This document shows, one piece after another, positions 1 through 18,922 of a DNA stretch of 21,018 nucleotides. The stretch lies in the IMG/VR virus record IMGVR_UViG_3300032307_000580, positions 1 to 21,018 of that record, one strand, 5' to 3'. The DNA comes from a virus. Below the pieces are notes generated by a model. The model ran no database searches. It was not told where the DNA came from and worked only from the letters and a program-made list of their open reading frames with translations. Both the position numbers and the translations under genes were made by a program. Within the stretch, counting starts at the first letter, position 1, and the number at the start of each line of letters is the position of its first letter.

Positions 1-3000
1 AGTTGACGCTAATGGTAAAGCACAACAAATTTACAGAAGATTAGCTGATGTTGTCTGTGGTAACTTATCATCACAAGCTTCATTCGCAAGAAGGGTTGAG
101 GTAAATTCTGTCTTAGCGCCTAAAGAAATACCTATTGTTAAGGTTATACCACCTAATCCAGATCCCCCAAGAGAAATTGAGGAGAGATTTGTTTCAACTA
201 ACGTAACTAAAAGAGAGATTGCGCAAAGAATTCTAAATAAATTATTAACCGAATGTGACTATTTCGAATACTTGTCGCAAGAGGCGCCTATTGTATATGA
301 TAGTTTGAAAAGTAAGTTAAAATATTTTACACCTGCTTTCCACTCTATGACACCAGAAGGCCTAAACACTAGACTTACTTTCTTACAACAATGTATGAGG
401 CCTGGTGAAACCATAACTAAAAACCAAGGTGAGGGTAATTGTGATGCTAAAAACACCGCATTTGGTAAACCACCTGTATGCGTATTGAGAATAGGTGATT
501 TTTACCATACAAAAATTATCATTAATAACTTAAATATTAGTTACGATCCTTTAGTTTGGGATTTGAACCCAGAGGGTATCGGTGTGCAACCTATGTTAGC
601 TAAAGTTAACCTTTCATTTAAATATATTGGTGGACAAGGTCTTAGAAGATATGTTGATCAATTACAGAATGCACTATCGTTTAATTATTACGCTAACGCG
701 GATGTTTATGACGAAAGAACTTTTGCTAATACTGATAGAAGAGAAAGAGATTTAATTAACCTAGAACAAGATTTCTTCGCTCAAAATAGTTTAGATTTGA
801 TACCTATTGTTGCTCAAGCGAAATTAATAACACCTACAACAGAATTTTTACCAGTACCAGTGGGTACAATTGGTATAATAAGCCAAAGGTTGTTACCTAA
901 ATTAGCTGGTGGTACTTATTACAACTATTTAGTCGCCGCAACACCATTTAACCCAGTAACTGATTACCCAGCCGAGGCTTGCGTTATTTACCAAGGTCAA
1001 TATTATGTTAGAAAGGTAACAAAATACCCTGCAAGTGGTCCAACAATACCAACTGACACAAACACTTGGTCAATTGTTGATCACTCTAACTTTGGTGAGT
1101 TTGCATTTAGACAGGAATACGGTAGATATTACATAAGCCAATATGACATACAATATGATGGTATGTTTGGTGAGTTATATAAAACATTTGGCGAATACAT
1201 ATGGTCATTAACTGGTGAAAAATGGAGTTCTGAAGACACAGATATCTATAAAACTTTACCAGAAATTCTTAGAAAGAAGAACTATAGTAAAACTTTACCG
1301 ACAACTGGTACAACAATATCCGATATTATATCAACAATAAGCGGTAACACTATACCTCTTGGTTCTTTTAGTGGCTTAACATACTATGAGACTTTTAGAA
1401 ATATTGCTGAAGATAAAAGATATATTGAATTGGGTGATATATTTAAAACACACCCGTTATTCTTATCTAAGAATAATAATATGCCAGAAAATTTTGAAGC
1501 GTTAAAATTAAACTTACACCCACAAGAATATATGTTTAAAGTTGGTGATGGTTTAGGTTTACCTTATAATTTCACCGCTTTAACAGGCGCGACAAATAAC
1601 GGTAGAAGTACAAAATATTTCCAAGGTAGCTTTACAAACGGTTACACAAATTATTTTGACGGTGTTTCTGAAACTGGTGGTATATTCTTTAAAGAAAGTG
1701 CTAATTCACAAAAAATCTATGAGTCAATCATGGATAATTTTTCGGCTGAATTTAAAACAAAAATTAGATTAAATATATTGCCGATATGGGATAAAAAATA
1801 TGATACAAATCTTAACACATTTAACGCTTTTAATAATAAGTTAGATGATGTACATAGAATCATGTTTAGAACTTATTTATCAAACTTATTTGAGTCATAT
1901 TATAGTGGTTTAAAATCAAATGATGAAACATTAGCAAACGATTTAAATGATAAGGTTGCTAAGATGAGTGTTATTTTAGCTGGCCTATCATTACCATTGT
2001 ATGGTTATGATGCCAAATATACACAAGATGGTAAAGCTCAGTTATATGAGATAGTACCTAACGCTAAAAAGTTAGTAACCCCAGTAACAGACGCTAAGAT
2101 GTTTGGTTATAATCCGTATGACCAGTATAAGAAATTAAATATAAGTGGTGGTGAAATAATTAATTTTGCTGACGTTAAAACTATTTTCCAAAATACTTCA
2201 TCAGGGTGGGATGGTAATTCAACACCTACATTGCTTGATTATATTGGGTTAGGTAACGGTTTATATTTCTTTAAACAATTGGTTAACGAAGTTTCGGTTG
2301 GTAGTACAATAGATTCACCTATTTTTACCGATGAGTCACCTGTTATTAATGAGTATGTTAGAAACATGGAGTTTTTACAAAAGGTATTCGGCTATTCAAC
2401 GTTAGATGAATTACCTAACCAATACAACTTTAAAAATTATTTACCAAAATCTAAAGTACTTTCAGATAGTGGACCTGGTACATACAATTATTATTTTGAA
2501 ACACCATTCTCATTTAACCCAACTGAATTTGGTACATCATCTTCAGCTAGATTACTAGAAACAACTGGTGATAATTTAGTTACTAGATTATCTGACGGTA
2601 GTGTCGCTAATACGGCTAACAACTCACTTAGCGATGGTAACTATGAAATGAAATATACTTGGGAAAAGTTAAATTATGAAATGCTTGATTTCAGTAATAA
2701 AACATTAGAATTGATGTTATCGGATGAAATGGAGACTAAATTAAATGATGTTGACTTTACCTACACACCTTCATTAGATTTTGATATGCAGTTAACTGGT
2801 TTAACTGGTACAACCGCTATCGGATCAATAAGTGGTACAACAACAGGTGACACATTACCTAAATTATTGTTCTACTATGGTGATAACAAAAAACCTAATA
2901 AAGCGTTAACAGCTGTTAATTATTATTTATTTAACAAAGATAACCCAAACATCACTGGTACCGATCTACAAACAATTTTGGACCAATTAAATGAGTTACT

Positions 3001-6904: not shown

Positions 6905-9900
6905 ATGGCGTCATCTTTATCAAATTATTTAAACCAGAGATATCTGGGTAGCACCGAAAACGATTTAGTGTCTTTGATGTCAAAAGCGTATGATGAGTAT
7001 AACAATAATACCATAAAAACGGTATACGGTAATTACCCATTTTCAGATGACAAATTAACCTCACCAAGAATTATAGGGGTAACTTACCCCACTAATTATA
7101 CACCGATTAATCACGCAATATTTGCACAAAATATTGTTAATGAAAGTAAAACGGGTAGGTTATTTAAAACCGCGCAACTTTTCATCGGTAGTTTGGGAAC
7201 TGCGTCTAATAACGGTAAATTATCACCAGCGCAATTGGCTAAACTATTTAGAACCTCTCAAGGTTTGATCGAGGTCCCAATCCACCTCATACTGTATATT
7301 GGTGGTTTATATGATTTTTATTATTACGGTCAAGCCGATAATGATATTAATTTGGGTTTAATTAATGGTTTAACTAATAAAAACGGCCAAGATATTTTAT
7401 CGGATGATTTATTATTAAATAAACATTACGGTTCATACGCTTTTAGCGATACTATTGACCCTGGTTTAAAAGCCGCAACATTACCTTTTTTGAAACCACT
7501 AACACCAAGATTTATTGACGACTTAATGTTGTTTGACTATGAATCTTATAAGGATACTAGTACACCTAGGAACTATGTGGATACTTACTATGATTATGAG
7601 TTTAGGAAAGATATTTCATTAAGTAACAACATATCATCACATATACCATTCTCTGGTTATGGTGTGTTGAATAATTATTTGAACTCAATGTCATACCTTT
7701 ATTTTGGTGAAGGGCTTGACGGTCAAGTGACTGAAAATACTAACTTAAATGAGGATAAATTACCATACCATATTATCGGTAATTTTAGGGGTAAATTAAA
7801 AACATTTAAAACATATAACGATCAAAATATAAACTTCCTGGGTTCGTATAATAGTTACGGCCCATCTGTTAAATTTGAAATAAGTGCACCTGAATCGGAT
7901 TTAAACACAATAACAGGTTCATTAACATTTGATAATGATTTTATTTTTACGGATAAAAACAATAAAGAAAAAATAGAATTTTTCCTTCTTTTATCGAAAA
8001 TAAAAGCTAATTTCCTTGGTGGGCACATTGATACTGTTGATGTATATAATACCGTTAGAAAATTATGTACAGTTAACAATTTAAAAGCTAAACAAGATGA
8101 GATTGAAATTCCAGATTTTATAACTCTTTTAATACATAGTTTGATGCCGCCAGACGGTGTTGAACCTGATGAAGGTTTTAATAGACTTAATCGAAACCTA
8201 AATATTTTAGATAAATACAACGTTGATTTTAGGTCGTTTAATGGCTTTATAGATGTTAAAACAAACGAGTATTTCGAACTATATCAGTTAATCTTTATGA
8301 TCAACAATTTAACTGGTAATGATCTATATGACTTTATGTCAAGATTTTTAATATCTATTTGGTCGAGAGAATTCAACCAAAAAGAGAGAAATAAATTGAG
8401 ACCACTTGATTCAAAAGGTACATTCGTTGTTTACCCAAGTTCTGGTGGTGACATAGATATTAAAAACCTATTCACTCAAAATGATGATCCGAGTGTTTAT
8501 CTAAGTGAAACAAAATCATTTAAAGACGCAAAATATCAGTACCAAAAAACAAATGTAGTTCACACAATATTTCAAACGCAGGGCGATGCTTACTTATCAA
8601 CGCTTAGATATAATGATGGATCTTTTTCAGAGTATTATGATGTATCTAATGATGTTTTAAAAAGATATGGTAACGATACACAAATGCTGTATTCCAAAAT
8701 TAACCCTGGTCTAGCTGAATTTATTGACGTTAATAACAATGTAAACAAATTCTCAGAAAGATTTACAATACCTTTGGTTAACCCTTCTTTAGATAATTCG
8801 CTATTAAACAGATTTACACCAGTTTATTTTAGACCAGAAAACGCGCCAACAGATGGTATCGCAATCAATTATTTTGATAGATATGATGACGTTTATGTAA
8901 CAGCTGATACAACTGACCCTGAAGGTATAAAAAAACTTAAATTTGATAATAAATCTTTAATCTACAACACAAGTAGGTTGTTCTGGTTTGACACACCTAA
9001 ATACAACAACGTAACAACACCAGAAGTACTTAGATTCGCACCCAAAAACCAAACAGAAAAACCTAGTTTAATTTCTGTTGATTATTTAGAATACGCACAT
9101 TTTAATTTAAAGAATAGGAGTGTTTATAATTATACAGAAGGTGAGATTTTTTACAACACAAATAGTAATCAAATTACAACATATAATGAATTTAAATCTG
9201 GTTTAAATCTATACATCACTCAAGATGTTAGTCATAGCGCTAAGGAATTATCTAACCGCTTTTCCGATAACCAACAACAACAAGAGCAACAATCAGCTAA
9301 AGCATTGTTAGACGTATTTGATGTTGATAAATTAGAGGATTTTAGAACACTATTTAAAAAGTTTAGTGATGTAACACAAGAATCTTACTTTACAAAAACG
9401 TTTAATACTTTTGATTTTAAATCATTACTTAAACACACAACCATGTTTGGGTACACTAATTTACCTAATTCACTCACTTTAGGTGATAGATCGTTTAGTA
9501 AGGATGAATTATTAGCTTTGTTATGTGGTTACTCAGGTAATTTTATAGAATTTGCTTCAAACACAGGTTTATCAAAAGTAATTAACACCGCTTTAACTCT
9601 TGGACAAGAAGATAAGGCTAGGTTTGTTATAGATGAGTTTTTAAACGCGAAGATAACAGTTAACAATTACTCAACAGCTGGGCCGTTATCGATCGAAACT
9701 ACTGACGTTAACAACCCAAATGGTTTAAGGTTAAACTCCTTCGTCTTTAACCCAATAGTAGCGTATTCATCAAACACCAGGACATATGAAAATATAGTTG
9801 CGTCTTTAGGTGATGTTTTATTATTTAGAACAATACTATTTGGTGACCAAAATATAACATCATATAGCGAAAACATCGCCGACTTAGATAAATTAATAAA

Positions 9901-12900
9901 AAAGTACGTTTATTTTAAGGGTATGACAAAAGATGTTGACCCAATACTAGATGAGTTTTTTATTGTTACCGAATTAACTAGGACTTTTTTCAGGAAGTTA
10001 AACATCCAATTAAATGAAAATAATTTAAAATTATTAATAACATACCTAAGAAGTTACATATCAAGTGTATTAAATAAAGTCAATGTTTTAAATGTAAATA
10101 AAACCACTAAAGATAGTTTATTTAATTTGGTACCCGCTCATTCTGATGAGGCTACAATTTATCCGTATAAAGAGGGTGCGAAAAACACGTTATATGATTA
10201 CAAGAAAAAGGCTGAGGTTATTATAAGTGAGGTTAAAAACGGTGTTTTAGTTAGTACTAATAATAAAATACCTTATGAGGTTGAAGTTTTTGAAGATTTG
10301 TTTGCCAACGCGGAGTTTAATGACTGGGTTAAAAATTTTAATAAAGACTTTGTCGAAAAAACATTAACAACTTTAAACAATTCTTTGGGTTCCTTAGGTG
10401 ATAAATTGTTAGAGAAATTAACTACTGGTGCTTTAACACAGGCAGAAGGTACTGGTACCTATACAGAAATATCTAGGGACGATGTTGAGATTAGAACTGG
10501 GACATACTATAGATTAAAAACTTTATACGATAAAAACGTATCATTCACAAATGTTGATATTAGTGACGATAGGTTAATAAAGAAACATAGTTATGAACTT
10601 GGTGGTGCTGATGTTAATGCGATATTAAATAGCCCATTATTTTTTAATTTTAATGTTCAGCAACAAGATATTTGTGATGACGCTGGTTTATTAGAACCTT
10701 CCGATAAAGACCTAAAAGATTTGATTGATTATGTTAGTGTCCTTGATAGAGGGAATAATGCTTTCGGTACAAAAGTCCTTGTTGACATAGTTTCATTAAA
10801 ACAACTTTTATCGGATGACTTATTCAAAGAAGGTGAAATTAATAAAGCCACATCTAAATCAATGTGGACAATATTATCTAAACTTGCTAGTGACCATGAG
10901 TTTTTATTAATGCCGATGACATCGTATATAAATCTTAGTGGTTCTGTTTCGGAAAACCAAAGCCCTTATGATTTGGCGCACGATATGTTTGGTGTGTTTA
11001 AAAACTTGGAGATGTGGGAATCAAACCCAGCATTTATTTTCCAATTCGGTTCGTTAACTTCAAACGTCACAACGGGTAACAAAAGAAAAAATTCCGCTAA
11101 TAGTAATCTTGATTTAAGTAATACTTTCTGTTTGGATATAGACTCTAATAGTTTAGATGTCGATGGCAACGGTAAAATACTTAACGAAGATGCACCAGCT
11201 GACGTTAGAAACTCAAATGTATCATCTTTCATAGTTGATTTTGCTAACCAAAACCAAAACATGTTTGAAAGCATACAGCTATCAACTGATGAGTTTGCGA
11301 ATACCGAGGAAAGTATTAAAGCACAGGTTGCGTTGGTGTCAACTGATCAACCAGTTTTATCGACAGGTAAGTTATTTAGTGCAATGGAAAACAGATCGTA
11401 TTCTTGTACCGTAACAAGTCTTGGTAACGCCACAATACAACCTTTATCTTATTTCTATTTAAGAAATGTGCCGTTGTTTTATGGTACATATTGGATTACA
11501 AACGTTAGCCATAAAATTACAGCTAACAATATGTCAACAACATTTAAAGGTGTTAGACAACCGATCGCCAGAAAACCAACCTCAAACATAGCTGTGATCA
11601 AAGCCTTACTTAAAAAAGCTAATGAGTTATCAGCTCAACAAGGTTATTTGGATAGAAATGACACAACGCCTATACCAACGTCTGGACAAATCTATATTGA
11701 TAGAGCGTTTACAGGTGTTTCTGGGACAAATAGTGAAACACAATATGGTTTGTTATACCAAAAGGGTACTGACAGCGATAAATATGTTACTTATAACGCG
11801 TTGTGGGTTATCGCGGCATATATTAAATTAATGACTGAGGGTGATGAAACCGACACCCCTTTAATCAAAACAATTGTATCGTATTTACATAACAACGCGT
11901 CTGTTTTAGCCGAAGATATTGAGTGGGATATCCAGATTACTGGGCCTTATATGATTGACATCGTTGTTTACGACTTATACCATAAACTTGGTTATGATGT
12001 TGAACCTACTTTATCAATTAGTAGTTTATTAGATGCTTACCCAACAACTTCTGGTGATGTTTACCAATCAACTCTAGTTAAGATATTGGAGTTTAAAGGT
12101 AAACCAAATGAATTATTAAACTATTTGACTTTAAGTTATGAGGAAAAATATAATCCAAAAACAACTTTAATCACAAATAGTAAAGATGTTTCTATTACTA
12201 ATGACGAAACTTTACCTAAAATAAGTTTTCCTGGTGAGATTGCTGATGCAAATATAAGCTCAATAACAAGAGCTAACTATTGGGTTAGTGAAAAAACAAA
12301 GAGTAATTACCAAATATTTAATGGGTTATCAACCTATGAATTGGTTAATTTATTTGACACATCCCCAGCAACTAACTCGCCATCATTTAGCCAACAAGCA
12401 ACCCAACAATTACAACAACAAAGCCTTTCAGCGATTCAGTTGGCCAATGTTGCTGACGCAACGTATGTACAAACACCAGTTTTATACACACCACCCGTTG
12501 TTGGTAAGGTTAATGCCTCGTTTAAATTACCTAACTCACCGTTGTTAACGACACAACAACCGCAAAGTTTTGCAACTCAGTTATTCGCGAACTTACCTCA
12601 GTTCAATAATACTCAGACAACAACAACAGCTAGCACACCAAGACCAGTTGGTACACAATCAGATGGTTCATTTGTTTTTGGAAAAGCGTTTTCAAAAACG
12701 TTTAAACCCAAGGGTTATGATGGTAATGATGAATTAGTTGTGTATGTTATGGGTGGATATGGTAAGAGTAAACAATACTCATTCTTTAAGATATGTAAAG
12801 ACTCTGAAAAATTTGAGGGTGATACTTTAAAGATAAAAGATCATGGTTATATTAATTTAGGAGAAATAGGTCGAGACACTGGCTCAACTGGTGACACAAC

Positions 12901-13915
12901 TTATATATACACGATTAAGAATGTCAGTGATGAACAAACTAAAAATATCTACACCGCACCAGTACAAAGTAGCGGTGGTGGTGGCGGCGTCATCTCTGGT
13001 TGGTTAGAACCAGTAAATAACTACACAATTACGTCACCTTTCGGACCAAGATGGGGTAGACAACACAAAGGGCTTGATTTAGGTGTACCTGTTGGAACGC
13101 CAGTTTATAGTTCTTATGACGGTGTTGTGGTTGGTGCTGGTTTATTAGATCCAGATGGTTATGGTAACGTTATTATTATAAAACACGAAGGTGTTAATTT
13201 AACAACTGTTTATGGTCACTTAAGCGAATTTAATTTATCTGAAACAGGACGTAGTATAAACATACCTGTTAAAGCTGGCCAACTTATCGGTAAGAGTGGT
13301 GGTAAGAAAGGTGCCCCAGGTGCTGGTAGTAGCGGTGGCCCTCACTTACACTATGAGGTTAGACAAGGTTTGGCTAATGACTATTCAGGTACATTCTCAC
13401 TTAGTCCTGTAGATCCAGAACCGTATATTAAAGGCGAGGTTATAACAGTACAAGGTGGTGATGATACAAAAGCTGGTAGTGGCGATAAAGTGTCAAAAGG
13501 TTTAGATTATACTGTCGCATTTTTAAAAGATGTATTAAAAGGCCTTGGGGTTAGTTCACCAAACGAAAGCCAGATTAAGTTTATGAAAGCTTGGCGACAA
13601 CATGAGGGTGCTAAAGCAACTTATAACCCTTTTAATACAACACAAAAGGCGAGTGGTGCCACAAATTACAATGATGTTGGTGTTAAAAACTACATAAACA
13701 GATCACAAGGTTTAAAAGCTACTTTAGATACTTTAAATAATGGTAGATATGGGGCGATCATAACTGCTATTAAAAACATTAAAAATGACAATGATATTAA
13801 TTCGGCTATGCAGGCGGTTAACGATTCACCATGGGGTAGTAATTTTAACCCAACGGATTACAGATCTTGGAAAACTTTAAATAATTACATATATGGTTAT
13901 GCTAATGAGGGTTAA
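6905..13915 (+). CDS. Giant baseplate hub protein with M23 endopeptidase and lysozyme-like domains
   Basis: A 2336-residue protein, probably the tail hub and tip lysin combined (the T4 gp27/gp5 role). Residues about 1430-1560 resemble a phage hub domain, ending LFYGTYWITNVSHKITANN and a STTFKGVRQP strand. A Ca-binding-type loop DVDGNGKILNED lies at 1418-1429. Gln-rich spacers occur near 790 and 1830-1920, and a Gly5 hinge at 2024-2028. Residues about 2030-2175 form a peptidase M23 domain: H2054-x3-D2058 (HKGLD), YGH with H2105, and H2147-L-H2149 (PHLHYE), all zinc and catalytic residues intact. It would cut peptide cross-links in peptidoglycan. Residues about 2195-2336 look lysozyme-like: AWRQHEG with candidate acid E2234, then NPFNTT and repeated Gly/Tyr turns. 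No signal peptide is seen, as expected for a virion protein. It starts immediately after the previous stop. M23 is near certain; the lysozyme-like call is moderate. Confidence 0.85.
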   Translation: MASSLSNYLNQRYLGSTENDLVSLMSKAYDEYNNNTIKTVYGNYPFSDDKLTSPRIIGVTYPTNYTPINHAIFAQNIVNESKTGRLFKTAQLFIGSLGTASNNGKLSPAQLAKLFRTSQGLIEVPIHLILYIGGLYDFYYYGQADNDINLGLINGLTNKNGQDILSDDLLLNKHYGSYAFSDTIDPGLKAATLPFLKPLTPRFIDDLMLFDYESYKDTSTPRNYVDTYYDYEFRKDISLSNNISSHIPFSGYGVLNNYLNSMSYLYFGEGLDGQVTENTNLNEDKLPYHIIGNFRGKLKTFKTYNDQNINFLGSYNSYGPSVKFEISAPESDLNTITGSLTFDNDFIFTDKNNKEKIEFFLLLSKIKANFLGGHIDTVDVYNTVRKLCTVNNLKAKQDEIEIPDFITLLIHSLMPPDGVEPDEGFNRLNRNLNILDKYNVDFRSFNGFIDVKTNEYFELYQLIFMINNLTGNDLYDFMSRFLISIWSREFNQKERNKLRPLDSKGTFVVYPSSGGDIDIKNLFTQNDDPSVYLSETKSFKDAKYQYQKTNVVHTIFQTQGDAYLSTLRYNDGSFSEYYDVSNDVLKRYGNDTQMLYSKINPGLAEFIDVNNNVNKFSERFTIPLVNPSLDNSLLNRFTPVYFRPENAPTDGIAINYFDRYDDVYVTADTTDPEGIKKLKFDNKSLIYNTSRLFWFDTPKYNNVTTPEVLRFAPKNQTEKPSLISVDYLEYAHFNLKNRSVYNYTEGEIFYNTNSNQITTYNEFKSGLNLYITQDVSHSAKELSNRFSDNQQQQEQQSAKALLDVFDVDKLEDFRTLFKKFSDVTQESYFTKTFNTFDFKSLLKHTTMFGYTNLPNSLTLGDRSFSKDELLALLCGYSGNFIEFASNTGLSKVINTALTLGQEDKARFVIDEFLNAKITVNNYSTAGPLSIETTDVNNPNGLRLNSFVFNPIVAYSSNTRTYENIVASLGDVLLFRTILFGDQNITSYSENIADLDKLIKKYVYFKGMTKDVDPILDEFFIVTELTRTFFRKLNIQLNENNLKLLITYLRSYISSVLNKVNVLNVNKTTKDSLFNLVPAHSDEATIYPYKEGAKNTLYDYKKKAEVIISEVKNGVLVSTNNKIPYEVEVFEDLFANAEFNDWVKNFNKDFVEKTLTTLNNSLGSLGDKLLEKLTTGALTQAEGTGTYTEISRDDVEIRTGTYYRLKTLYDKNVSFTNVDISDDRLIKKHSYELGGADVNAILNSPLFFNFNVQQQDICDDAGLLEPSDKDLKDLIDYVSVLDRGNNAFGTKVLVDIVSLKQLLSDDLFKEGEINKATSKSMWTILSKLASDHEFLLMPMTSYINLSGSVSENQSPYDLAHDMFGVFKNLEMWESNPAFIFQFGSLTSNVTTGNKRKNSANSNLDLSNTFCLDIDSNSLDVDGNGKILNEDAPADVRNSNVSSFIVDFANQNQNMFESIQLSTDEFANTEESIKAQVALVSTDQPVLSTGKLFSAMENRSYSCTVTSLGNATIQPLSYFYLRNVPLFYGTYWITNVSHKITANNMSTTFKGVRQPIARKPTSNIAVIKALLKKANELSAQQGYLDRNDTTPIPTSGQIYIDRAFTGVSGTNSETQYGLLYQKGTDSDKYVTYNALWVIAAYIKLMTEGDETDTPLIKTIVSYLHNNASVLAEDIEWDIQITGPYMIDIVVYDLYHKLGYDVEPTLSISSLLDAYPTTSGDVYQSTLVKILEFKGKPNELLNYLTLSYEEKYNPKTTLITNSKDVSITNDETLPKISFPGEIADANISSITRANYWVSEKTKSNYQIFNGLSTYELVNLFDTSPATNSPSFSQQATQQLQQQSLSAIQLANVADATYVQTPVLYTPPVVGKVNASFKLPNSPLLTTQQPQSFATQLFANLPQFNNTQTTTTASTPRPVGTQSDGSFVFGKAFSKTFKPKGYDGNDELVVYVMGGYGKSKQYSFFKICKDSEKFEGDTLKIKDHGYINLGEIGRDTGSTGDTTYIYTIKNVSDEQTKNIYTAPVQSSGGGGGVISGWLEPVNNYTITSPFGPRWGRQHKGLDLGVPVGTPVYSSYDGVVVGAGLLDPDGYGNVIIIKHEGVNLTTVYGHLSEFNLSETGRSINIPVKAGQLIGKSGGKKGAPGAGSSGGPHLHYEVRQGLANDYSGTFSLSPVDPEPYIKGEVITVQGGDDTKAGSGDKVSKGLDYTVAFLKDVLKGLGVSSPNESQIKFMKAWRQHEGAKATYNPFNTTQKASGATNYNDVGVKNYINRSQGLKATLDTLNNGRYGAIITAIKNIKNDNDINSAMQAVNDSPWGSNFNPTDYRSWKTLNNYIYGYANEG

Positions 13916-13962: not shown

Positions 13963-14190
13963 ATGAACAACATTGGAAGTAAATTAGACCAGTTCTTGGG
14001 TAAAAGAATTGAAGAGGCCCAGGTAGGAGAAGAAGTATGTGATTTAAAAACAGGTATTTGTTACGTAAAAACAAAAGACGGTTTAATCGAAAGAACTTTA
14101 ATAGAAAAAAAATTAGTCCTAGAGGACGGTAGAGAATTATTGAGAGAAGAATCACCTATAACCCATTCAACGAAAACATTTTTAAGATGA
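13963..14190 (+). CDS. Small conserved-looking protein of unknown function, 75 aa
   Basis: The ATG follows an A/T-rich leader (aaaataacaatt) after a 47-nt gap from the hub gene. The product is short, charged and rich in Glu, Lys and Leu, with no membrane segment. Two cysteines (C26, C33) flank DLKTGI and the segment looks like a small beta-hairpin; spacing is C-x6-C, too little to call a zinc site. The end overlaps the next gene in an ATGA junction (stop TGA at 14188-14190, next ATG at 14187), which suggests coupled translation. Its position after the hub suggests a late structural or assembly role, but that is inference. I do not recognise the family. Confidence 0.6.
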   Translation: MNNIGSKLDQFLGKRIEEAQVGEEVCDLKTGICYVKTKDGLIERTLIEKKLVLEDGRELLREESPITHSTKTFLR

Positions 14191-14948
14191 GTAACAAATT
14201 AGATAAAATTTTATCCGAAGAGATAAAAAGGTTTAACAAAATCATGTCCTATCAAGATAGATTGAGCGAAGGGCATCATTATAAATTTTATGAAGCTGAA
14301 GAGGATGAGGTTGCTCCAGAAGAAGCCCCAGTTGATGCTGGTGTTGATACAACTGGTGGTGAAGAAGCTGCCCCTGTAGACGCTGGTGTTGATACAACTG
14401 GTGGTGAAGATATGGGTGCTGATATGACTGGAACTGAAGAAGTACCAGCAACTGATGACGCCGCTATTGACACAACTGGTGATGTTGCTCCAGAAGCCGC
14501 TCCAGAAGGTGACGTAGAGGTTGATGTAACCGAATTAGTTAACTCGACAAAAGAAATGGCTGCAAAAGCTGATGACATTGTTCAAAAAATTGCTAGTTCA
14601 TCTGAAAAGATTGAGGCTATCATTAACAAAGTTAATAGCGTTGAACAAAATCTACAGAAAATGGATTCTTTGGTACAACAAATGGACGCTTTAGCTAAAC
14701 AAGTTGAATTGATGAGACCACCTACTGAGGAAGAAAGAAGAAAGGTTTTAGCCAAAGATTCATACCCATTTAGTGTTACACAAGATGAGTATATGAGTGG
14801 CGATGCAACAAAAACCCAAACCGATTTAGAAAAAAGACCAGATAAGATGTCTATGATGGATAGTTTAATGAATAACTATAACGAAATGGATATTAAAAAC
14901 AGTTTCTACAATTCAAATAATAACGACAAACCAGTAAGTAACTATTAA
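14187..14948 (+). CDS. Acidic repeat and coiled-coil protein, putative virion or assembly factor, 253 aa
   Basis: Residues 1-30 form a charged amphipathic helix (SEEIKRFNKIMSYQ). Residues about 36-112 are an extremely acidic, Ala/Pro/Thr/Gly-rich linker that includes two near-identical 15-residue units (PVDAGVDTTGGEEAA at 48-62, PVDAGVDTTGGEDMG at 63-77) and degenerate copies after them. Residues about 112-176 form a long coiled coil (VNSVEQNLQKMDSLVQQMD). The C-terminus is Asn/Ser-rich and disordered. This helix, acidic spacer, coiled-coil architecture fits a scaffold or assembly protein, or an internal virion protein. There is no enzyme motif. It is coupled to the preceding gene by ATGA overlap, and the next gene starts 1 nt after its stop. 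Open frames on the minus strand here are by-products of the biased codons and are not genes. The function is unknown; the structural guess is from context. Confidence 0.65.
   Translation: MSNKLDKILSEEIKRFNKIMSYQDRLSEGHHYKFYEAEEDEVAPEEAPVDAGVDTTGGEEAAPVDAGVDTTGGEDMGADMTGTEEVPATDDAAIDTTGDVAPEAAPEGDVEVDVTELVNSTKEMAAKADDIVQKIASSSEKIEAIINKVNSVEQNLQKMDSLVQQMDALAKQVELMRPPTEEERRKVLAKDSYPFSVTQDEYMSGDATKTQTDLEKRPDKMSMMDSLMNNYNEMDIKNSFYNSNNNDKPVSNY
14328..14417 (+). repeat. Tandem 45-bp coding repeat, two copies
   Basis: Two adjacent 45-bp units (14328-14372 and 14373-14417) encode PVDAGVDTTGGEEAA and PVDAGVDTTGGEDMG. They share a long identical stretch (gctggtgttgatacaactgg) and differ mainly at third codon positions and near the ends. 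Weaker acidic copies follow. The in-frame unit length would allow copy-number change without frameshift. Confidence 0.85.
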
Positions 14949-15332: not shown

Positions 15333-15363
15333 TTGACTTTTCGAATAATTGTACCTACTTTTG
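15333..15363 (+). promoter_or_regulatory. Bacteroidota-type promoter for the replication module
   Basis: The -7 element TACTTTTG (15356-15363) matches the Bacteroidota consensus TAnnTTTG, and TTGAC (15333-15337) lies 18 nt upstream as a -33-like element. Transcription would start near 15370, giving a leader of about 15-18 nt (A/T-rich, no Shine-Dalgarno) before the ATG at 15387. The phage therefore probably uses the host housekeeping sigma factor for this unit. Confidence 0.75.
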
Positions 15364-15386: not shown

Positions 15387-16328
15387 ATGATTGACTACAA
15401 AAAAATCGATTGGAGCAAGGCCGCAACAGACACACTGGCCGATTACGAGAAAGCAAAGTCGAAAACTACACAGACTACCCAATCTAGTTCTGTTGACTTG
15501 ACAAAGTATTTTACAATTGCACTTGATGAGGGTGCACAAAGCGGTGAGAAATCAGTTAGGATTCTTCCTAACCAAGACGATCCGACAAAATGGTACAAAG
15601 TTGGTTATTTCCACAACTTAAAAATCGGGAAAAGATGGACAAAACTTTATGACCCATCACAAGATGGCGAAGCATCACCTTTAAATGAGATGTACAAATT
15701 CTTAATGAAGAGTGAAGACAAAGAAGAAAGAAAATTGGCCATCCAATACAAATCACGACAATTCTTTATCGTTCGTGTTATTGAACGCGGTAAGGAGCAT
15801 GAGGGTGTTAAATTCTGGAGATTCCCAGCTGTACAAGACGGTTCTGGTATCATGGATAAAATCGCACCGCTTGTTAAAAAGTATGGGGCGTTCTGGAACC
15901 CATTCGAAGGTTTCGACCTTACAATCTCTATGATCAGAGATAAATCAAAAGATTCAAAAGTTGGTTTCACAAAAGTTGCTTCTATCATTCCTGATAGAGA
16001 GTCTAAACTTTCTGACGATGAAAACCAAGCGGTAGAGTGGTTGGGTGACCCAATGGCTTGGACAGATGTGTTCAAGAAAAAATCTGTTGAGTATTTGAAT
16101 ATCGTTGCTGAGGGTAGCGAACCAATCTGGGATGCTGAACAAAAATGTTTCATCGCTAAGGTGGAAGATGGTGTTAGTACATACACACCAACACCAACAC
16201 CTAAAGCAGTATATGACGCACCAGTTGCCATGTCTGAAGAAGATGATGATTCTTCTGTTATGACAGAAGGACCAACAGCTGAAGAGGTACCAAACGCTAA
16301 ATTAAAGATTGACGATTTACCGTTCTAA
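15387..16328 (+). CDS. 32: Single-stranded DNA-binding protein, gp32-like
   Basis: Binds and protects ssDNA during replication, recombination and repair. The core resembles T4 gp32: an N-terminal basic helix region, then VRILPNQDD (57-65) and an OB-type fold region with RQFFIVRVIERG (124-135), VKFWRFPA (141-148), and a middle KYGAFWNPFEGFDLTI (165-180). T4 gp32 carries a zinc site made by one His and three Cys; here only one Cys (C254) exists in the whole protein, so that site is lost. The C-terminus has a Pro/Thr linker (TPTPTP), an acidic stretch EEDDD, and ends KIDDLPF, like the protein-docking tip of bacterial SSB (DDDIPF in E. coli). Length 313 is near T4 gp32 (301). It is the first gene after the promoter at 15333-15363, so it should be strongly expressed. 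The family call is good; the docking role of the tip is inference. Confidence 0.85.
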   Translation: MIDYKKIDWSKAATDTLADYEKAKSKTTQTTQSSSVDLTKYFTIALDEGAQSGEKSVRILPNQDDPTKWYKVGYFHNLKIGKRWTKLYDPSQDGEASPLNEMYKFLMKSEDKEERKLAIQYKSRQFFIVRVIERGKEHEGVKFWRFPAVQDGSGIMDKIAPLVKKYGAFWNPFEGFDLTISMIRDKSKDSKVGFTKVASIIPDRESKLSDDENQAVEWLGDPMAWTDVFKKKSVEYLNIVAEGSEPIWDAEQKCFIAKVEDGVSTYTPTPTPKAVYDAPVAMSEEDDDSSVMTEGPTAEEVPNAKLKIDDLPF

Positions 16329-16415: not shown

Positions 16416-17420
16416 ATGGCAGTTAAAAAGAAAGAATTTTCATTCGATGACATGAGGAATAAATACAGTTCCTCTACAACTTACAAACCAGATACATTCC
16501 TAAATTGCGGACCTGCTTTTTTGGAAATGACTGGTATCCCAGGTCCAGCTGTTGGACACATTAACATGTTACTAGGTCACTCAGATACTGGTAAAACAAC
16601 TGCTTTAATTTTAGCGGCTATTTCAGCACAAAAACAAGGTATGATTCCAGTATTCCTGGTTACCGAAAAAAAGTGGGATTTTAGCCACGCAAAATTAATG
16701 GGTTTAGATTGTGATCAAGATCCAGCAACAGGTGAATGGGTTGGCCGATTCTTTTATCGTGACGATTTCTTTTACATCGAACAAATTACCGATTATATCA
16801 ACAAACTATTAGATGACCAAGCAAAAGGTGATATCCCGTTTGATTTGGTTTTCTTCTGGGATTCAGTTGGTTCAGTTCCTTGTAAAATGACATTTGACGG
16901 TAAAGGTGGTAAACAACACACCGCTGGTGTATTGGCCGAAAAGATTGGTATGGGTATCAACCAACGAATCAACAGTACAAGAAAAGATACGTCAGAATAC
17001 ACAAACACTATGGTGGTTATTAACCAACCATGGGTTGAATTACCAGATAGCCCAATGGGTCAACCTAGAATTAAAGCTAAGGGTGGTGACGCTTTCTGGT
17101 TGAACTATACGATCATTTTCTTATTCGGTAATCAGAAAAACGCTGGTACGACTAAAATTGACGCAACCAAAAATGGTAGAAAAGTTAAATTTGCAACGAG
17201 AACTAAAATCAGTGTGATGAAAAACCACGTAAATGGTTTGGGTTATGGTGATGGTAGAATTATCGCAACACCGCACGGATTTATCTTGGATTCTAAAGAG
17301 GCTATCGACCAATACAAAAAAGATTGCTCACAATACTGGGTAGATACTTTGGGCGCCGCTGATTTTGATTTATCAGAAGAAGTACCAACCAAATATCAAG
17401 AACCAGACTATGAAGATTAA
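16416..17420 (+). CDS. uvsX: UvsX/RecA-like recombinase
   Basis: ATP-dependent strand-exchange protein that forms filaments on ssDNA with help from the ssDNA-binding protein, for recombination-dependent replication and repair. Walker A is GHSDTGKTT (54-62), followed by VTEKKWDF (82-89), where E84 matches the catalytic Glu of RecA (E96), then HAKLMGLD. Walker B is LVFFWDS (144-150, D149). VVINQ (200-204) is the RecA-type NQ motif that precedes the DNA-binding loop L2, which ends KGGDAFW (222-228). Length 334 is a little shorter than T4 UvsX (391) or RecA (about 350). The C-terminus is acidic (EPDYED). The P-loop looks more like bacterial RecA than T4 UvsX. The ATG follows an A/T-rich leader. 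The exonuclease gene overlaps its last 11 nt. Confidence in a RecA-family recombinase is high; 'UvsX' follows from context. Confidence 0.9.
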   Translation: MAVKKKEFSFDDMRNKYSSSTTYKPDTFLNCGPAFLEMTGIPGPAVGHINMLLGHSDTGKTTALILAAISAQKQGMIPVFLVTEKKWDFSHAKLMGLDCDQDPATGEWVGRFFYRDDFFYIEQITDYINKLLDDQAKGDIPFDLVFFWDSVGSVPCKMTFDGKGGKQHTAGVLAEKIGMGINQRINSTRKDTSEYTNTMVVINQPWVELPDSPMGQPRIKAKGGDAFWLNYTIIFLFGNQKNAGTTKIDATKNGRKVKFATRTKISVMKNHVNGLGYGDGRIIATPHGFILDSKEAIDQYKKDCSQYWVDTLGAADFDLSEEVPTKYQEPDYED

Positions 17421-18459
17421 TAAACCAATCAGAAACAGAGTAATTAAAATTAACTCGTTACTTATTGATGGTGAATATCTACTAAAACAAGGATTTCATG
17501 GTGCCAAACATTTGCAAGGTAAACACGGAAGTGTTGGCACCATTTTTCACTTTGTTAACACGATCAAACGATTTTACCAAGATTACGCCGTAACAAAGGT
17601 TGTGGTTTTTTGGGAAGGTAAAGGTTCTAAAGATTATAGAAAAGCTTATTATCCTTACTACAAAGAAAATCGTAATAACAAGGTTGACCTGGATGAAGCT
17701 TTTGATTTAGATCGACAAAGAATACGAATCAAACAGTATCTTGAAGAGCTATCAATACGACAAGTTGAGATTGATGGTTGTGAGGCTGATGATGGTATCG
17801 CGCATTACTCAATGAACTCACCTAATGAAAGTAAAATAGTCTACACCAACGACCGTGATCTATTACAATTATTAGATGAGGATACAAAAGTTTGTTTAAC
17901 AATCAAAGGGGCTAAAGTAATGATTAACATGGACAACTTTGATAGTTACTTTGATTACCATTATTCAAACGTAGGTATCATAAAAATGATCGCTGGTGAT
18001 AGTAGTGATAATATATCTGGCTTACAAAATGTTGGAGAACAAAAAGTTTTAAAATATTTTCCAGAGATAAAAACTAAACCAGTTGACCAAGATTGGGTAC
18101 TTAATCGAACTAAGGAGCTATTGGTTGAAAAACCCGATGACAAGACATTAAACGCGATTATAAACGGTGAAACTAAGTGGGGTACTTACGGCAGTGATTA
18201 TTTTTCAGTAATGAATAAGATCATCAACTTAAAAGAACCACATGTTACGGAAGATCTGAAAGAGGCGATTAATGAAATGGTTAATGAAACTTTATCCCCA
18301 GAAGGGCGTGGTGGTATTAAAAAAATCATGGAAATGATGAAAGAAGACGAATTATTAAATTTTTTACCAAAAAATGATGACGCTTTCTTTGTTTTCTGGA
18401 GTTCTTTTATTACTATTATAAAAAAGGAAGAAAATGATTACAACAAAAAAAACAAATAA
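17410..18459 (+). CDS. rnh: 5'-3' exonuclease / RNase H, FEN family (T4 Rnh-like)
   Basis: Removes RNA primers and 5' flaps from lagging-strand fragments. The metal-binding acids of the FEN family are present: D20 (LLIDGEYL), E125, D127 and D128 (CEADDGIAH), D148 and D150 (TNDRDLLQL), D197 and D200 (AGDSSDNISG). A helix-hairpin-helix DNA-binding segment follows (GLQNVGEQKVLKYF, 204-217). Y76-R77 in DYRKAYYPYYKENR matches the basic motif that precedes the arch. The length of 349 exceeds T4 RNase H (305), mainly by a C-terminal helical tail. I chose ATG 17410 (MKINKPIRN); the in-frame TTG at 17365 would start deep in the recombinase gene with no family motif upstream. It overlaps the recombinase by 11 nt and ends 1 nt before the second possible ATG of the next gene. 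A stand-alone pol I-type exonuclease is the alternative name. Confidence 0.88.
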   Translation: MKINKPIRNRVIKINSLLIDGEYLLKQGFHGAKHLQGKHGSVGTIFHFVNTIKRFYQDYAVTKVVVFWEGKGSKDYRKAYYPYYKENRNNKVDLDEAFDLDRQRIRIKQYLEELSIRQVEIDGCEADDGIAHYSMNSPNESKIVYTNDRDLLQLLDEDTKVCLTIKGAKVMINMDNFDSYFDYHYSNVGIIKMIAGDSSDNISGLQNVGEQKVLKYFPEIKTKPVDQDWVLNRTKELLVEKPDDKTLNAIINGETKWGTYGSDYFSVMNKIINLKEPHVTEDLKEAINEMVNETLSPEGRGGIKKIMEMMKEDELLNFLPKNDDAFFVFWSSFITIIKKEENDYNKKNK

Positions 18460-18922
18460 CATGGAAGACAAAAGAGAACAACGTAAATTTGAGTTTACAC
18501 TTTATCTTAACGATAACATAATCGTACAAAGATTCTTTAACATCATCGGTTTTAACCATAGAGCGATTAATTCGCTTAACTTCAAAGAGGCTGTTGACGA
18601 CAACATGCGATTGATCCAAAGCGTTCTTAAAGACAGAACCCTGGATTTTATCACTGAACATCAAAGACAGTTCTCTGAAACTCAAGACTACGAGCAAAAC
18701 AGCTCTAAAGACGTTATGAAGATTGTTGTTAAGCAAGAAGGTAAAGTTATCGCATATAGAGAGTGGGATGCAACTATTTATCCAGTTAAAGTTAGATACA
18801 CCGTAGATATTCGCCAGCACATTTACGAATTAATCACAAGAGTACAAAAATGTCTCTGCACACCAACAAAAGAATTGGAAACAGAGTACATGGGTTACAA
18901 CTTACAGGTTCAATTGGTATAA
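18434..18922 (+). CDS. Unknown replication-module protein, 162 aa
   Basis: I do not recognise this family. The product is soluble, mixed alpha/beta and charged. An N-terminal beta strand region (FEFTLYLNDNIIVQRFF) is followed by a helix (FKEAVDDNMRLIQSVL), then a beta pair (KIVVKQEGKVIAYREWDA) and a Cys pair CLC near residue 140. No nucleotide-binding or catalytic motif is seen. Two starts are possible: ATG 18434 (overlaps the exonuclease by 26 nt, with GGAAG just upstream) and ATG 18461 (1 nt after the exonuclease stop, with an A-rich leader like the other genes here, giving 153 aa). I give the longer form, but 18461 is about equally likely. It lies between exonuclease and helicase, so a fork accessory role such as helicase loading is possible by context only. 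Confidence 0.7.
   Translation: MITTKKTNNMEDKREQRKFEFTLYLNDNIIVQRFFNIIGFNHRAINSLNFKEAVDDNMRLIQSVLKDRTLDFITEHQRQFSETQDYEQNSSKDVMKIVVKQEGKVIAYREWDATIYPVKVRYTVDIRQHIYELITRVQKCLCTPTKELETEYMGYNLQVQLV

Follow-up and report, generated by a model that had tools for sequence, protein, structure and literature searches.

Bacterial single-stranded DNA-binding protein (SSB) carries a C-terminal tip that docks many genome-maintenance proteins, and the gp32-type SSBs of phages have been described as recruiting phage-encoded partners through an acidic C-terminal domain of their own. The locus described here raises the question of why a gp32-type SSB from an uncultured virus ends in a peptide of the bacterial kind, and what that peptide may bind. 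The gene lies in IMG/VR record IMGVR_UViG_3300032307_000580, of which positions 1 to 21,018 were analysed; this whole stretch of 21,018 nucleotides is called the window below. The parts of the gene are as follows.

15387..16328, + strand: gp32-family single-stranded DNA-binding protein, 313 amino acids (open reading frame, Pfam PF08804, AlphaFold model against 2a1k and 1gpc)
15495..16121, + strand: gp32-like OB-fold core, residues 37-245 (VIA-align against 1gpc, model 37..245)
16173..16295, + strand: variable, mostly acidic disordered linker, residues 263-303 (pLDDT, pairwise identity)
16305..16325, + strand: C-terminal tip KIDDLPF, with DDLPF at 16311-16325 (block identity 0.97, 148/148 homologues, synonymous codons)

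The open reading frame starts with ATG and stops with TAA. Its product matches the Pfam gp32 family PF08804 (8.9e-9; 36.1 bits against a cut-off of 26.8), and a PHROGs search returned weak matches to two phage SSB families. A sequence search of the PDB with the protein or its profile gave no match at E values up to 10, so that a fold search was needed to place it. An AlphaFold model built from 25 homologues (mean pLDDT 72) had gp32 structures as its sole confident Foldseek matches (2a1k, 6.9e-9; 1gpc, 2.5e-8), and VIA-align matched it to the T4 gp32 core 1gpc with a Z score of 12.9 and an rmsd of 4.0 over 192 aligned residues. The bacterial SSB model TIGR00621 matched nothing in the window record, nor anything in six related phage contigs. 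An earlier note on this DNA had read the core as T4 gp32-like and had proposed structure prediction as a check; the PF08804 match and the gp32-like OB fold of the model, with its matches to 1gpc and 2a1k, both uphold that reading. The modelled fold identifies the window protein as the phage's own gp32-family SSB, predicted to coat ssDNA through its gp32 OB core. The likeness to the gp32 of T4 and RB69 extends from the core fold (1gpc, 2a1k) to the acidic C-terminal domain and the recombination and replication genes nearby, at about 19% identity to T4 gp32 over the structural alignment. The window SSB differs from T4 gp32 in lacking the His/Cys3 zinc site and in ending LKIDDLPF, where T4 gp32 ends DLDDLLNDL.

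The C-terminus itself reads AKLKIDDLPF and follows the acidic stretch SEEDDDSSV, in keeping with the KIDDLPF end behind an acidic stretch that the earlier note had described. Every close relative retrieved from IMG/VR keeps the tip, and a profile search reached a group at 48% identity that ends MNIDDLPF and another at 28-31% identity that ends YDDLPF. Further scans, with DNA patterns that did not include the tip, yielded a set of 204 distinct complete proteins. An [DEN][LM]PF end is present in 148 of 148 distinct proteins from four related clades (20 in the window clade, 2 in the L070 clade, 73 in the 'pro' clade and 53 in the zinc clade), down to about 28% core identity, and the claim of a docking signal thus survives the check on its final residues. 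A PF end is found in none of the 56 members of the immuto/Mel group (55 in the immuto clade, plus Mel-JY01), whose ends resemble FDDLFN, in none of the 11 other gp32s compared (T4, ValKK3, P-SSM4, S-WAM2, DSL-LC02, Melnitz, Mendera, phiM19, Ds3CZ, pv27 and AG-345) and in none of 795 other distinct open reading frames of 150 amino acids or more from related loci. In a 206-kb relative, the SSB alone ends in PF among 152 open reading frames of 130 amino acids or more.

The region before the tip behaves quite differently. Residues 262-313 of the window SSB have pLDDT values under 50 and are predicted to be disordered, and mean pairwise identity within the window clade is 0.86 for the core, 0.44 for the linker and 0.97 for DDLPF; across the tip-bearing clades the linker is unalignable. 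The tails are net acidic, carrying over their final 40 residues a median of 7-10 more negative than positive charges, and the acidic stretch is variable, being replaced in L034, L035 and L037 by a Thr-rich, only mildly acidic linker with the tip unchanged. The codons of the tip vary synonymously: both Phe codons are in use, as are, in the pro and zinc clades, all four Pro codons. Since all 148 proteins keep the tip while the linker cannot be aligned and the tip codons vary synonymously, the tip is, judged from these sequences, beyond chance and strongly selected, its five residues fixed despite the turnover of the linker. In one relative, L025, whose SSB variant lies at positions 1905-2732 of that contig, the core is 97% identical to the window at the DNA level and the linker is gone; unrelated DNA takes the place of the SSB tail and of some of the 3' flank, yet it still encodes LDDLPF, with different synonymous codons for DDLPF, and homology to the window resumes beyond it. 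L025 may be a natural experiment on linker loss with a recoded tip, although it is a single contig and an assembly fault is possible.

These data bear on whether the tip does anything at all. Its length of only five residues would suit a functionless inherited remnant or a chance end; its retention in every homologue while the adjoining linker turned over completely, its synonymous codon changes and the recoded tip of L025 all speak against this reading, to which we give almost no credence. Hardly more credible is a degron, by which the LPF end would mark the SSB for removal by a host protease. A C-terminal LPF is sufficient for ClpXP degradation of SsbA and of GFP in some Streptococcus mutans strains, but it is not recognized in E. 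coli, in other streptococci or in other S. mutans strains (PMC5143411); some of the phage tips are MPF, and an unstable SSB would be of little gain to a phage. That selection maintains the tip as a functional docking element we consider very probable, docking being what we infer from the pattern.

The phylogeny of the SSBs places the acquisition of the tip. A tree of 124 representatives was built with the last 30 residues removed; the search behind it was quick, and at some of its forks long branches come together. All tip-bearing proteins lie on one side of a single branch (SH-aLRT 99), and the presence of the tip requires one change on the tree, against 29.3 in shuffles. The tip maps to one origin. 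Five residues are too few to decide between convergence on the bacterial peptide and borrowing of it; the tree shows only that the origin was single.

The earlier note had set the tip beside the loss of the gp32 zinc site, of which the following remnant is visible.

15612..15686, + strand: gp32 zinc-site remnant, with H76 kept and the Cys ligands replaced by D89, S97 and N100 (alignment against HCCC relatives)

The sole cysteine of the window SSB is C254, and the columns that align with the ligands of zinc-bearing relatives hold H76, D89, S97 and N100; His alone is kept among the ligands, so a His/Cys3 site cannot form, just as the note had deduced from the single cysteine. At the ligand positions, all 50 zinc-clade proteins with coverage of the site, and L128 too, read HCCC; four relatives around L085, a phage from a Prochlorococcus cell, read YCC plus an aromatic residue; and the window clade, like most others, reads HDS[NST]. 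The gp32s of P-SSM4, S-WAM2, Melnitz and Mendera contain no Cys at all, and no PF tip either. These Cys-less cyanophage and Mendera proteins indicate that the zinc site is a feature of T4 gp32 and not one that defines the family, and the ligand states require at least three changes on the tree. A coupling of tip gain with zinc loss is rejected: the zinc clade has both the ligands (50/50) and the same tip, and many zinc-free gp32s are tipless. On the alignments, zinc loss is a separate and ordinary matter. The SSB of L085 has a half-eroded site (Y, C, C, hydrophobic) and ends SDDLPF; together L125-L127 (YCC-aromatic) and L128 (intact HCCC) present intermediate states near zinc-free relatives, a useful series for the study of zinc-site loss.

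To which proteins the tip might dock depends in part on the host. In a sample of 31 Bacteroidota SSBs, drawn mostly from best-scoring loci so that tipless paralogues may be under-sampled, 29 end DDLPF and two end DELPF; the phage tip DDLPF is identical over its five residues to most of them. Expression signals were also considered, among them an element upstream of the gene.

15333..15363, + strand: Bacteroidota-type promoter-like element TTG-N20-TAnnTTTG (position conserved in relatives)

This element lies 24-54 bases upstream of the SSB start codon and is kept in relatives. The number of such promoters was dropped as host evidence, with 5 consensus matches in the whole window against 3.8 in shuffles. 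Shine-Dalgarno-like sites ahead of open reading frames are rare in the pro clade (1.6%), the zinc clade (2.4%) and Flavobacterium phage immuto (1.2%); the window clade has them at 7-10%, and control phages at about 63%. Relatives were located in one Bacteroidales MAG, in one Izimaplasma MAG from the same sampling project and in one Prochlorococcus single-cell genome. The last is tip-bearing L085, which sits in a genome whose SSB ends NDIPF; its location is contrary to a Bacteroidota host unless it is a co-sorted virus. Cyanobacterial SSB tails, a weak comparison, had no PF end among the 14 of 29 loci that could be parsed. From the SSB tips and the expression signals, the hosts of the tip-bearing phages are probably Bacteroidota. 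Flavobacterium phage immuto has a tipless gp32, so infection of Bacteroidota does not depend on the tip.

The main alternative to host docking is that the tip binds a phage-encoded partner, most likely a UvsX/RecA-like recombinase, or else a helicase or polymerase, its likeness to the host tip being convergence on a good peptide. A candidate is encoded next to the SSB.

16416..17420, + strand: UvsX/RecA-like recombinase, candidate phage-encoded partner (phrog_97, UvsX-like, 1.1e-14)

In most relatives the recombinase gene comes directly after the SSB gene, an order that favours this alternative. The partners known for phage SSB tails are encoded mostly by the phages themselves: Dda is recruited by the C-domain of T4 gp32 (PMC11551737), and the tip NDYPPF of the HK620 SSB, a protein of another family, is required to load the adjoining phage-encoded recombinase Sak4 (PMC5928155). 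Against it, the gp32s of Flavobacterium phage vB_FspM_immuto and Microcystis phage Mel-JY01, the nearest isolate relatives found, share the SSB-recombinase neighbourhood yet end FDDLFN and FDDLFNKD, so that a PF tip is no prerequisite for having the recombinase as a neighbour. A partner encoded by the phage would moreover be free to co-evolve with the SSB, yet PF is invariant in 148 proteins; such invariance over deep divergence would better suit slow-changing host pockets. We regard a phage-encoded partner as somewhat unlikely.

Host proteins are the likeliest partners because the tip equals that of the host phylum, its acidic positions vary likewise and PF is invariant. A point against host docking is the replication machinery of these phages, which seem from their gene content to bring their own T4-like replisome, so that a need for host factors is not evident. 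Five of six related phage contigs gave weak family-B polymerase matches, and primase, SbcC-like and RuvC-like proteins also seem to be encoded; searches of related contigs, which may be incomplete, found no family-A polymerase, RecO, PriA or bacterial SSB. We hold it about as likely as not that the tip docks mainly host proteins, the identity of the partners being what we infer from these likenesses.

Several neighbours of the SSB gene deserve mention in their own right. The order SSB-recombinase-exonuclease-helicase recurs in L085 (QCKH01000004.1). Between the 5'-3' exonuclease and the DnaB-like helicase, the window encodes a small protein of no known family (18434-18922, + strand), with a 31% identical counterpart at the same place in L085, a candidate helicase-associated factor. 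Upstream of the SSB lies an acidic, repeat-rich protein (14187-14948, + strand; L085 counterpart 27% identical), whose N-terminus, KILSEEIKRFNKIMSY, resembles those of several other open reading frames in the 206-kb relative and is perhaps a shared targeting signal. A 2336-residue protein (6905-13915, + strand) has a Peptidase_M23 domain at residues 2053-2154 (1.6e-21) and is probably a tail or baseplate protein bearing a cell-wall hydrolase associated with the virion.

A further alternative requires no partner. Intramolecular control by the tail has been proposed for T4 gp32 and T7 gp2.5, and here the acidic tail and Phe tip would act as competitors of ssDNA in the OB groove, thereby regulating when DNA is bound and released. 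In T4 gp32, the C-domain shuts over the DNA site at low salt (PMC5892887), and the phage SSB tails are net acidic as such a mechanism would need. Charge alone would suffice for it, however, with no need of an invariant terminal Pro-Phe; the outgroup gp32s have acidic tails without PF, and the tip stays fixed across linkers of widely different charge. As the main role of the tail we find this improbable.

We propose instead a model of docking in which the gp32 OB core of the phage SSB would coat ssDNA while the flexible, fast-evolving acidic linker presents the invariant tip [D/E][D/E][L/M]PF-COOH. The tip would act as an SSB-Ct, its terminal Phe and acidic residues entering a pocket on the partner protein, and docked partners would be brought to phage ssDNA; the likeliest are SSB-interacting proteins of Bacteroidota such as RecO, PriA, RecQ, RecJ and RecG. 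A gp32-type protein whose bacterial-SSB-type tip equals that of the likely host phylum would fit docking to host repair proteins. The whole model, a gp32 SSB with an SSB-Ct-like tip that docks mostly host proteins, may as well be right as wrong. The idea of a gp32 lineage with a bacterial docking signal gains from the conserved tip and its identity with the host-phylum SSB tip, and loses its link to zinc.

Comparison with known systems sets the bounds of this model. The tip resembles the bacterial SSB-Ct (DDDIPF; DDLPF in Bacteroidota) in its acidic-hydrophobic-Pro-Phe C-terminus after a variable disordered linker; it differs in sitting on a gp32 core instead of the bacterial SSB OB domain, and its partner binding is putative. 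T7 gp2.5, whose tail partners are T7 replisome proteins, belongs to another OB family and has no LPF motif. It is nonetheless a phage SSB with an acidic tail, the C-terminal Phe of which matters for partner function (Ghosh et al. 2009, cited in PMC9917605). The HK620 SSB (DUF669) is closer, as a phage SSB with a PF tip, experimentally needed, and an adjoining RecA-like recombinase gene (PMC5928155); it differs in SSB family, in host and in having a phage-encoded partner, Sak4. The open-access literature yielded nothing relevant on a DDLPF-type tip on a phage gp32, and a term search of the Hna paper, on a phage SSB as a defence trigger (PMC13381803), turned up no role for an SSB tail. PF-type tips on phage SSBs are thus already known, and the present one appears, within the open-access literature, to be the first found on a gp32 fold.

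A deep gp32 clade with an invariant SSB-Ct tip is present in hundreds of environmental phage contigs, probably from phages of Bacteroidota. We tentatively suggest, at somewhat less than even confidence, that an uncultured T4-like lineage gained a mimic of the host SSB tip once, on a phage SSB unrelated to that of the host, and that the mimic draws SSB-interacting repair and restart proteins of the host to phage DNA or off host DNA. If this is true, short-peptide mimicry would link a replication protein of the phage to an interaction hub of the host, and the tip offers both a test at the level of a peptide and a marker motif for the lineage.
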